Shown: one piece after another, positions 14,649 through 18,564 of the stretch
How the letters are laid out: each line of letters begins with the position of its first letter
How positions within the stretch are numbered: position 1 is the first letter of the stretch
Virus record (IMG/VR): IMGVR_UViG_3300046747_000423
Location: 1 to 23,876 of that record
Source of the DNA: a virus
Length of the DNA stretch: 23,876 nt
Direction: 5' to 3' (one strand)
Made by a program: the position numbers and the translations under genes
Notes under the pieces: model-generated
The model's input: the letters and a program-made list of their open reading frames with translations, nothing else
The model's database searches: none
What the model was told of the DNA's origin: nothing

Positions 14649-15238
14649 GAGAACAGCCTGCCGAACGGGTTGGGGGGCGTTACTTGCTGGCCGCCGTTCA
14701 TGCGCAGCTGCGCCAGCAATTCCGGCGGCAGCGAGTTCAGCGCCGAGCCGCCCGGCGGCGGCAGCATCTGCGGCGGCTGGCCGGGGTTGACCGGCATGGT
14801 GTGCATCATGTTGCCGCCCAGCGGTCCCTGCATGCCCGGGCCCGATCCCCCGAAACCGAGGGGCGGTCCGCCGAGGCCGCCCAAGCCGGGGGAGCCGAGG
14901 GGTCCCGCCTGCGCTTGAGCGGCCGCCGGCGGGACGGCGCCCCCGTAGGACAACCGCAGCGCCATGTCGTTGTACGGTCCGAGCCCGAACATCTGATTTG
15001 AGGGGCGGCCCGGGCCATAGGCCGGATTGCCGGAGACGGGCGCCTGCCGCATCGGCGCCAGCGAAGCACCCACCGCGGTCGCCTGCACGGCGTCGCGCTT
15101 GGCCTGCTGCTTGCCGCTGTTGCCGCTGCTGCCCTGAATGCCGCTGCGCAGCTGGTGTTCGTACTTCTGGAACGGCGACAGCTTGTTGAGGACGTTGTCC
15201 TTGAGCTTCAGCGGATTCAGATTCTCTAGGAAACTCAC
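14645..15238 (-). CDS. Gly/Pro-rich low-complexity protein, 197 aa
   Basis: Only the first 60 residues look structured (MSFLENLNPLKLKDNVLNKL with FQKYEHQLR). The remainder is Gly/Pro/Leu/Met-rich (GSPGLGGLGGPPLGFGGSGP, MLPPPGG), likely disordered or collagen-like without strict GXY periodicity. It starts with ATG 15238 in ATGA overlap with the nozzle gene. No function recognised. Placement between the nozzle and ejection genes suggests a minor virion protein or assembly linker. Confidence 0.65.
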   Translation of the reverse strand: MSFLENLNPLKLKDNVLNKLSPFQKYEHQLRSGIQGSSGNSGKQQAKRDAVQATAVGASLAPMRQAPVSGNPAYGPGRPSNQMFGLGPYNDMALRLSYGGAVPPAAAQAQAGPLGSPGLGGLGGPPLGFGGSGPGMQGPLGGNMMHTMPVNPGQPPQMLPPPGGSALNSLPPELLAQLRMNGGQQVTPPNPFGRLFS

Positions 15239-16701
15239 CGTCTACCTCCCAGTGCGGCCGCGTCGAGTTCGACGCCTTGCCCGTGTGTAAAGCCGCCGCC
15301 GATGTTGACGCGATACCGCTGATAGCGGCTGTTGGTGATGATGCACGCCTTGCCTTCCGGCGTGAGCCCGCGCGCGCTACCGAAGGTGACGTTGCCGGCC
15401 GGCAGGTTACGTTTGCCCGCCTGCACCGTGAACGTGGTGGCCGGCGTGCCATCGACGATCGGCCGGACAGCATTGGTGATCAATCGCTGTCCCGAGCGCA
15501 GTTCCTTGGTGTCGATGGTCGCGGCCAGCGCGGCGCCGGAGAAGTCCGCCGTTTTGTGGTCGGAGCCGAACGCCGCCAGCGACAGCGCGCCGCCTTTGAA
15601 TGCGTCGGTATCGACCGGTATAGACTGAATGTCTATACCGGAAGGAAATGGCGTGTCCAGCTGGTCGAGCGTGAGCCCCGAGGTGACGTACTCCGCCAGC
15701 CACTCGGTGTTCACTTCGCCGTAGGTGAAGCGCCCCGACGGCCAATGGAAGATCAACAGGCGATCGTTGTAGGCGAGCGACGACGACGAGCGGAACGCCC
15801 AGAACACCAGCGCGTTCTGCCGGTCGACGGCGGAGTTCATCTGCGCCACCGACGACATGTCCGAGTTGGCGCGGAACCACTTGTTCACCTTGTTGGCGCC
15901 GATCGGCGTGCACGGCGTCGAGCCGGAAAACATGTAGAAGCCGTCGTGCGAGTAAAAGAAGATGAACGGGCCGGTCCAGCAGACCGAGTTCGGCGCCGGC
16001 GTGCCGCGGCCGGGTTCGATTTCGTTGAACTGGAAAATGGTCGGCGGGCCCACGTATTCCATGTGATTTAGGGAATGCTCCTGCAAGACGAACCCGACTT
16101 CACCGGGGACGATCTTTTGAACCCGCCCGCCTTTACCGAACAGCTGCTGACGGTCCGACTGAGTCTGCCGCGACGGCGTCCACAGCGTCGCGTTGTTGTA
16201 GCCGGACCAGCCGAGGAAGTCAGGCCCGTAGGCTTGCAGATCCCCGAGCACCACGAAGTCGCGCACCACCGCGATCCGCTTGGCGTTGTAGGGCGAGCCG
16301 GTCTGATCGGCAAACGCCGACGACGTGCCCACGGTGTACTTCTGCATCGCGTCGAAGTAGTCGACGCCGAGCACGTCATTGCCGAACTTGGCGAATTCCC
16401 AGCTGGTGGCCGAGTACGCGTGCAGCGACTTCGACACGTTGGTCCACGTGGTGCCCGAGTCGAGCCGATACAGGTCCTGCGCATCGCCGGCAAAGTTGTA
16501 GATGACGTTGTCCGAGCCCTGCAGCCATATCGAACCGAGGCACGCCGCGGTCAGCGCGTTGGTGAACGACGCCAGCGAGTTCAGCTGCCGGTAGCTTTTC
16601 AGCTGCGGCAAACAGTTCTTCGCGATCAGCGCACCGGGGTTCTCCAGATCGGGCAGATCGGGGAGCCATTCGCCGAAGTCGAGCGGTGTCGGGTCACTCA
16701 T
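15235..16701 (-). CDS. tail nozzle / DNA stabilisation protein, P22 gp10-like, 488 aa
   Basis: Closes the portal channel below the adaptor. N-terminal LPDLPDLENPGALIAKNCLPQ followed by KSYRQLNSL is the characteristic start of podovirus packaged-DNA stabilisation proteins. The chain is beta-rich with Trp/Gly/Tyr blades (GWSGYNNATLWTPS, FIFFYSHDGFYMFSG, LIFHWPSGRFTYGEV), fitting a propeller-type fold. The length is close to P22 gp10. It is the first gene left of the antisense 68-aa cassette, with about 420 bases separating it from the adaptor gene. It contains a strong inverted repeat at 15615-15641. The Shine-Dalgarno before ATG 16701 is weak. Confidence 0.75.
   Translation of the reverse strand: MSDPTPLDFGEWLPDLPDLENPGALIAKNCLPQLKSYRQLNSLASFTNALTAACLGSIWLQGSDNVIYNFAGDAQDLYRLDSGTTWTNVSKSLHAYSATSWEFAKFGNDVLGVDYFDAMQKYTVGTSSAFADQTGSPYNAKRIAVVRDFVVLGDLQAYGPDFLGWSGYNNATLWTPSRQTQSDRQQLFGKGGRVQKIVPGEVGFVLQEHSLNHMEYVGPPTIFQFNEIEPGRGTPAPNSVCWTGPFIFFYSHDGFYMFSGSTPCTPIGANKVNKWFRANSDMSSVAQMNSAVDRQNALVFWAFRSSSSLAYNDRLLIFHWPSGRFTYGEVNTEWLAEYVTSGLTLDQLDTPFPSGIDIQSIPVDTDAFKGGALSLAAFGSDHKTADFSGAALAATIDTKELRSGQRLITNAVRPIVDGTPATTFTVQAGKRNLPAGNVTFGSARGLTPEGKACIITNSRYQRYRVNIGGGFTHGQGVELDAAALGGRR
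15615..15641. repeat. 11-bp perfect inverted repeat inside the nozzle gene
   Basis: CCGGTATAGAC (15615-15625), loop TGAAT, GTCTATACCGG (15631-15641). It is richer in A/T than its surroundings and lies fully within coding sequence (residues around SGIDIQSIP). No T-tract follows on either strand. On the plus strand TTGAAT (15596-15601) lies 17 bases before TATAGA (15619-15624), a weak antisense promoter match. Confidence 0.85.
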
Positions 16702-16795
16702 GGCAATGACCGTTCGTCGGATAGGTAATTCGCTGACGCGGGGTCACGTAACCCCTTGATCTGACCGTCGGGCGGGGGGGCGCGAAAAGTGCGTT

Positions 16796-16804
16796 TGGTA
16801 TAAT
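16796..16804 (+). promoter_or_regulatory. extended -10 promoter of the 68-aa gene
   Basis: TGGTATAAT: a perfect TATAAT at 16799-16804 preceded by the TGn extension. No -35 match is present at the right distance (the region is a G-run), as is normal for extended -10 promoters. Expected start is near 16811, about 50 bases before the ATG. Confidence 0.75.
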
Positions 16805-16859
16805 GGCCTTGTCGCGGTGCATCCACGACTAGTTCATTAACAATATCGGAGAACGGAAA

Positions 16860-17066
16860 ATGACTGCTCCTGTCATAGTAAACAACGACGGCGCCTACAT
16901 CGTGATCGACGTCGATCGCTACATCGACGGCGTTCAGCACTGGTACAGAGTCAAAATGTGGTCGCGCGAACTGGTCGCGCTCTACGGCGACAAGGCGCTG
17001 AAGAACAAAAGCCAGAAGGTGAAGGAAGCGCACGGCGCCGTCGTAGTCGAATACTTGGGCGTCTGA
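16860..17066 (+). CDS. moron-like 68-aa protein, antisense to the late block
   Basis: Function not recognised. MTAPVIVNNDGAYIVIDVDR starts a compact, probably alpha/beta domain: strands APVIVN, AYIVIDV and HWYRVKMW, a Lys-rich helical part (DKALKNKSQKVKEAHG) and a final strand AVVVEYLG. GGAG precedes ATG 16860 with good spacing. It is the only plus-strand gene between 8000 and 23876 and has its own promoter and terminator, the layout of a moron expressed apart from the phage programme. Candidates include a host-modifying, anti-defence or superinfection protein, but nothing in the sequence selects among them. Late minus-strand transcripts would be antisense to it. Confidence 0.85.
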   Translation: MTAPVIVNNDGAYIVIDVDRYIDGVQHWYRVKMWSRELVALYGDKALKNKSQKVKEAHGAVVVEYLGV

Positions 17067-17071
17067 CAGAC

Positions 17072-17103
17072 CAGCCCGGCCGCGCCAACGGCCGGGCTGT
17101 TTT
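17072..17103 (+). terminator. Rho-independent terminator of the 68-aa gene
   Basis: CAGCCCGGCCG (17072-17082), loop CGCCAA, CGGCCGGGCTG (17089-17099), then TTTT (17100-17103). A perfect 11-bp GC stem begins five bases after the stop codon. No T-run lies on the other side, so it should stop only rightward transcription. Confidence 0.9.
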
Positions 17104-17121
17104 ACTTGGGTGCGCGGCACG

Positions 17122-17772
17122 TCAGACCACCTGTCGGTTGCCGCTGGCAACCAGTGCATTCCCCGCAAAACGACGCCGCATTTCCGCCTTGTTGAATGAC
17201 GCAATCGCGGCGAGCGCGCGTGCGTCGTAGCCGTCGGCAATCTCAAACATCTGCGCCCAGCGCGCGCCGGCGGCGAGCATCGACCACAGATATACGTCGT
17301 AGCCGCGCGTCAGCAGCACGTTGGTGCCGCCGGCGGCCGTGATGATGCTCGGCAAGTCGCCGTGGTATTGCAGGTAGATCGTGGTCGCTGGCGAGCCGCC
17401 CGCGGGGGCGAACGTGAAGCCGAGCGTGCCCAGCGCGTCGATCGCCTCGATCGTGTAGTACATCGGCGAGCTACCCGAGCCGGCCGTCCAGACGGATGAC
17501 TGCCGGATCAGTTCCGGCGTGAGGTAGGTGATCTTCGCCGTCTGGTTGACGTCGAGATACAGCGCGATGCCCGACTTGTAGTCGGCCGGCACCGCCACGG
17601 ATCGGCCCGTCAGCGACAGCGACGTGAATTTCTGGAAGCCCATTGGATAGACTTCGCGCCCGAGCCACGCCTCCGCCGCGAGCGTGATCGAGTCGATCGA
17701 CGTGCCACTGACGGCGATGTCATCGCGCGCCAGCCAGCTGTCGACGTCGACCTTGAGCGTGGCGTAGGTCAC
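17122..17772 (-). CDS. head-tail adaptor protein, SU10/P22 gp4-like, 216 aa
   Basis: Binds below the portal and joins it to the nozzle. MTYATLKVDVDSWLARDDIA with SIDSITLAAEAWLGREVYP is the usual helical start of phage adaptor proteins of this group, followed by a beta-containing insertion (VAVPADYKSGIALYLD, TIYLQYHGDLP) and a C-terminal helical bundle (YDVYLWSMLAAGARWAQMFE, FNKAEMRRRF). Length agrees with such adaptors. Its ATG overlaps the stop of the 123-aa gene by four bases. The terminator of the antisense cassette lies 18 bp beyond its stop. Confidence 0.75.
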   Translation of the reverse strand: MTYATLKVDVDSWLARDDIAVSGTSIDSITLAAEAWLGREVYPMGFQKFTSLSLTGRSVAVPADYKSGIALYLDVNQTAKITYLTPELIRQSSVWTAGSGSSPMYYTIEAIDALGTLGFTFAPAGGSPATTIYLQYHGDLPSIITAAGGTNVLLTRGYDVYLWSMLAAGARWAQMFEIADGYDARALAAIASFNKAEMRRRFAGNALVASGNRQVV

Positions 17773-18541: not shown

Positions 18542-18564
18542 GGGGCGCCCGGAACGGGCGCCCC
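18542..18564. repeat. 9-bp GC hairpin just after the major capsid gene
   Basis: GGGGCGCCC (18542-18550), loop GGAAC, GGGCGCCCC (18556-18564), seven bases past the capsid stop. The stem is perfect, but on the minus strand it is followed by TCTACC rather than a T-run. It may stabilise the capsid mRNA 3' end or partly terminate transcription to keep downstream expression lower. Confidence 0.8.

Follow-up and report, generated by a model that had tools for sequence, protein, structure and literature searches.

A probable moron on the antisense strand of the adaptor/nozzle junction in the late block of a SU10-type podovirus

The closest experimentally studied design to the element described here is Tab (gene 31) of Pseudomonas phage JBD26, an 83-residue antisense moron of the late operon that is read from its own promoter and blocks tail assembly (PMC10884400). 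Tab shows that an antisense gene within a late operon can block virion assembly, and compact, independently switched genes of phage late operons have repeatedly proved to be superinfection or defence proteins. Our subject is a cassette built around a 68-codon gene, whose product we call p68, on the 23,876-base IMG/VR virus record IMGVR_UViG_3300046747_000423, which belongs to a short-tailed phage known solely from environmental DNA; the whole of this stretch is referred to below as the window. We conclude from its predicted signals and from comparison with related phages that the cassette is probably a moron, that is, a self-contained accessory gene cassette inserted at the adaptor/nozzle junction of a SU10-type podovirus. 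The published definition of a moron fits it in the main points (PMC2629481, PMC2920897), in that the cassette lies between genes that are adjacent in relatives, possesses its own terminator and, as predicted from sequence, its own promoter. Since the definition is worded with ‘may’ (PMC2920897), the missing homologue of p68 does not exclude membership.

Promoter, Shine-Dalgarno sequence, 68-codon gene and terminator together occupy positions 16796–17103, antisense to the late genes (Table 1), each of them where the sequence-only reading had placed it. The promoter, TGGTATAAT, is a perfect extended −10 element, and it is the sole TATAAT as well as the sole TGN-TATAAT on either strand of the 23.9-kb window; under a Markov model, 0.035 TGNTATAAT sites would be expected by chance. 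No −35 hexamer was found at the cassette promoter. The terminator stem (10 of 11 pairs G-C; −27.6 kcal/mol, z −3.8) is followed by a U tract in the direction of p68 transcription, and such a tract is absent when the hairpin is read in the minus direction. Only 18 bp separate the terminator end from the adaptor stop codon. The palindrome GGGGTCACGTAACCCC, which could possibly serve as an operator, precedes the extended −10 element by about 40 bp and lies between the promoter and the nozzle start. A scan of IMG/VR with the promoter string (TTTGGTATAATGGC) was dropped as too unspecific. No second contig carrying the exact cassette string was found, in a scan that may leave out near-identical records.

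As the sequence-only reading had proposed, we compared the adaptor/nozzle junction among related phages, which were gathered by scans with the nozzle and capsid proteins. The cassette is missing in all seven other lineages of the window's clade, the sister phage L047 included, and in each of them the adaptor and nozzle genes overlap or nearly abut: the adaptor stop and nozzle start codons overlap as TAATG in L047 and L053 and by four bases (NTGA) in L048, L050, L051 and L055, and the two genes are about 11 nt apart in L054. Within the window the same junction measures 420 bp; the next longest of the late junctions measured is 182 bp, and at all the others the genes either overlap or are separated by no more than 48 bp. 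L047 is 76% identical to the window in the capsid protein, 69% in the nozzle, 65% in the portal and 48% in the adaptor, and both flanks of the cassette match it in the same order. In the nozzle tree, the window and L047 group together at 100/100 within an eight-member clade that is itself supported at 100/100, and the cassette occurs in the window alone. Since it is restricted in this way within a supported clade, the data are accounted for by one gain on the branch that leads to the window, and a single insertion there appears to be the simplest history. The empty junction in relatives, together with the cassette's own signals, indicates that the cassette is an insertion, i.e. a moron. Its moron architecture, as originally proposed, is well supported.

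Many of the more distant relatives carry two sense genes, about 1.0–1.4 kb in total, at the adaptor/nozzle junction. L047 has a weakly cupin-like sense gene of 143 residues (L047:10807–11238) inserted at the next junction upstream, where the p17769 homologue meets the adaptor gene; the p17769/adaptor junction of the window is a 4-bp overlap.

The predicted p68 transcript runs from about 16811 to 17103, some 290 nt. Its start is some 110 bp away from the nozzle start codon, and it shares no sequence with the coding region of either the adaptor or the nozzle gene, being antisense to the late-mRNA spacer alone. One could imagine that the cassette mainly regulates the late operon, with transcription collision or RNA pairing with that spacer tuning nozzle against adaptor production and the peptide being secondary. 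Its position directly 5′ of the nozzle gene, which it uncouples from the adaptor gene, would suit such a role, as would the complementarity of its transcript to about 290 nt of late mRNA. We nevertheless consider this improbable, as the transcript overlaps no structural coding sequence, relatives produce nozzle without the cassette, and p68 has the full codon usage of the phage, which a pure regulator would not need. More improbable again is an origin of the p68 gene before the clade diverged, which would make it a core gene and not an insertion, followed by clean loss from every sampled relative. The equality of its codon usage with that of the phage genes speaks for such an origin, but several independent losses would be needed, each restoring the exact start/stop overlap, whereas one gain fits the tree.

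With a codon model derived from the phage's own genes, the p68 frame reaches 0.53 bits per codon, which falls in the range of the large phage genes (0.45–0.66), and the other five frames at the locus score between −1.34 and +0.04. An unsupervised gene pick on the window retains the p68 frame. A 182-residue antisense open reading frame on the minus strand (16698–17246) was rejected, as it scores −1.05 bits per codon within the gap. The G+C content is 56.0% in the p68 gene and 57.9% in the gap, against 63.9% in the window (about the 4th percentile), with codon usage remaining phage-like. No Rfam match above the gathering score was obtained for the cassette. We therefore see very little likelihood that the reading frame is spurious and that whatever transcript may be made is a small non-coding RNA: the protein is without a homologue and the finding comes from one sequence, yet the coding score, the start codon with its Shine-Dalgarno sequence, the five other frames that are not coding-like and the negative Rfam result all count against it. 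Scarcely credible is a metagenome assembly artefact in which a fragment was wrongly joined into the phage contig, for while the cassette is on one contig only, the sequences on its two sides align in order with one and the same sister phage, the codon usage matches the phage, and terminator and adaptor stop codon fit together with neither gene disrupted.

The p68 protein (7.7 kDa, isoelectric point 8.0) is predicted to be soluble, and no membrane segment was found in it. That it matches nothing known, as the sequence-only reading had stated, was borne out by sequence, profile and structure searches. No homologue was found in Pfam, PHROGs, NCBIfam, PADLOC or PDB, among phage records or plasmid records, or in scans of IMG/VR and GTDB, which rely on short exact peptides, so that a diverged relative of p68 could escape them. 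A degenerate scan for WYRVxMW returned 31 contigs, none of which resembled p68 outside the motif when examined by tblastn. Among 399 genomes of the order of Paraburkholderia there were 30 weak matches (E 0.001–0.05); the eight that we examined (L272–L279) were rejected as homologues because they share one common conserved stretch, have no start codon of their own and resemble the strand opposite to a conserved bacterial gene. Matches in 289 genomes of the class of Inquilinus were likewise rejected, as they contain internal stops or lie inside a large unrelated frame. A single-sequence AlphaFold model was obtained for p68 (predicted local distance difference test score 67, predicted template modelling score 0.51) and suggests, at low confidence, a beta-hairpin, a short helix and a C-terminal strand. 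The structure prediction that had been proposed thus yielded a model but no significant fold: no structural match was found in PDB or BFVD at E up to 0.001, and matches to kinase and homing-endonuclease structures were rejected as not significant. The p68 cassette is a clear case of a known kind of phage add-on whose product is an orphan in the databases searched.

Several observations weigh against the cassette being a moron. With no homologue of p68 elsewhere, horizontal transfer is not directly demonstrated, and the codon usage of p68, the same as that of the phage, means that the gene is not obviously foreign. A spacer of 420 nt would have to be carried on the late mRNA, where it might influence nozzle expression. 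Lysogeny, in which morons are usually met, is not supported: the five nearest records, which may be incomplete and one of which extends over 43.5 kb, yielded no tyrosine or serine recombinase (integrase or resolvase). An HTH_3 protein was seen solely in the more distant G004 record. As the window spans perhaps half a genome, the phage may be either virulent or temperate. Relatives of its capsid protein, at 32–46% identity, occur in bacterial genome assemblies of Vogesella, Inquilinus, Paraburkholderia and others (L129, L134 and L143 among the contigs); some of these contigs are long, suggesting that this type of phage has temperate relatives.

If the cassette is a moron, it might work as follows. 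Host RNA polymerase of the sigma-70 type would start at about position 16811 from the extended −10 element once the DNA enters the cell, or on a prophage should the phage form one, giving an mRNA of about 290 nt whose expression by the host polymerase would presumably be early or constitutive. In a virulent phage, p68 would best be regarded as an early gene that the host polymerase transcribes when the DNA comes in; in a temperate phage, it would be expressed from the prophage. The terminator would halt the transcript just short of the adaptor gene and so prevent an antisense run into the structural genes. Running in the minus direction, late transcription would meet no U tract after the hairpin and so would pass through it; late in infection, collisions with this opposing transcription would tend to shut p68 down. 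By analogy with other small antisense morons such as Tab, we would tentatively guess that p68 acts on the host or on competing phages; the anti-defence or host-modifying role raised in the sequence-only reading is likewise a guess by precedent.

In a distant clade, with nozzle identity near 30%, further antisense genes lie directly 5′ of the nozzle gene. L108, L109, L112 and L124 carry a gene of 86–98 codons in this place; the second and third types of the family are 69% and 49% identical to the first, and the close sister L111 is without it. In L112 and L124 the antisense and nozzle genes stand head-to-head, with start codons overlapping in CATG, and no promoter or terminator of its own was seen by eye beside the antisense gene in these two. 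A third, unrelated antisense frame lies in the same place in L101. The family resembles p68 in slot and in orientation relative to the homologous nozzle gene, but the proteins are different (profile comparison probability 0.3%), and an own promoter plus terminator was seen solely for the window's copy. The place of the cassette had been thought unusual; this holds among close relatives but not in the distant clade, where unrelated antisense genes occupy the same spot. Since they do, the site seems to take small antisense genes repeatedly, and may be a recurrent antisense slot. A bolder proposal, which we regard as doubtful, makes p68 the first member of a new family of small proteins, directed either at competing phages, which they would exclude or sabotage, or at a host function, which they would disable, with the site 5′ of the nozzle gene acting as a recurrent slot that swaps unrelated small genes, shielded from the late programme by their orientation. 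The cassette offers a clean insertion, an undescribed protein small enough for quick testing and a named slot to search; if that slot is a hotspot, it would provide a systematic route to more small orphan effectors in podoviruses.

Table 1. Positions of the cassette, its flanking genes and antisense genes in the corresponding place of distant relatives (window coordinates unless a contig is named)
Feature	Position	Strand	Basis or remark
Extended −10 promoter TGGTATAAT, without −35 (predicted)	16796..16804	+	sequence
Shine-Dalgarno sequence GGAGAA	16848..16853	+	read directly; GGAG to ATG 16860 = 8 nt
p68 gene, 68 aa (amino acids)	16860..17066	+	coding score, start with Shine-Dalgarno sequence
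Intrinsic terminator, 11-bp stem then TTTT	17072..17103	+	hairpin 17072–17099
Insertion between nozzle and adaptor genes	16702..17121		420 bp, longest late-block gap; empty in relatives
Palindrome GGGGTCACGTAACCCC, 14/16	16740..16755		sole close copy in window
Adaptor gene, SU10-type, flanks cassette	17122..17772	minus	PF24175 (E 5e-13), phrog_2941
Nozzle-like structural gene, flanks cassette	15235..16701	minus	phrog_3287, E 7e-61
Antisense family member, 86–98 aa	L124:14211-14582	minus	directly 5′ of nozzle
Antisense family member, 86–98 aa	L112:6303-6689	minus	directly 5′ of nozzle

The late block lies on the minus strand, as does every structural gene, and extends from about 23.8 to 8.3 kb. 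It encodes a portal of the SU10 type (PF23899, E 7e-164) and a major capsid protein (PF17236, E 1e-79); the host phage of the cassette is a podovirus with a SU10-type head. Identity to named phages is at most about 35% for the nozzle and about 44% for the capsid protein, and no close DNA match to the 3-kb region was found among phage records. A search for a phage RNA polymerase was uninformative, as it found none in the control genomes either. Just downstream of the major capsid gene there is a strong G+C-rich hairpin, at 18542–18564 in the window and at L047:10007–10028 in the sister phage, where the sequence differs; it is possibly an RNA processing or attenuation site allowing excess capsid protein.

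Three described systems can be set beside the cassette. The olg1/olg2 exclusion genes of phage Fc02 resemble p68 in encoding a very small protein (7.9 kDa) opposite another gene from an own promoter, but they overlap gene 10, whose transcription is early in the lytic cycle, and belong to a temperate phage (PMC9936078). They are described as matching a DEDDh exonuclease domain (PMC9936078), and the comparison with p68 is by description only. The ‘ant moron’ of P22-like phages is, as the cassette is predicted to be, a variable, independently expressed late-operon insertion in a podovirus, lying directly 5′ of a tail gene (the tailspike) and missing in some relatives (PMC2629481); it is, however, an immunity region of several genes that includes repressors and a regulatory RNA, and the cassette has none of these. 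Tab differs from p68 in belonging to a temperate Mu-like phage, where it lies between the genes for the small and large terminase subunits rather than between nozzle and adaptor, in having been reported with a partner, the anti-Tab gene, whereas p68 is without a companion gene, and in an upstream stretch that lacks an extended −10 element of the window's type; the two proteins gave no BLASTP alignment at E up to 100. What Tab and p68 have in common is their design, each being a small protein without a known domain, encoded opposite the late operon, provided with its own promoter, which for p68 is a predicted one, and present only in some of a group of related phages (PMC10884400).
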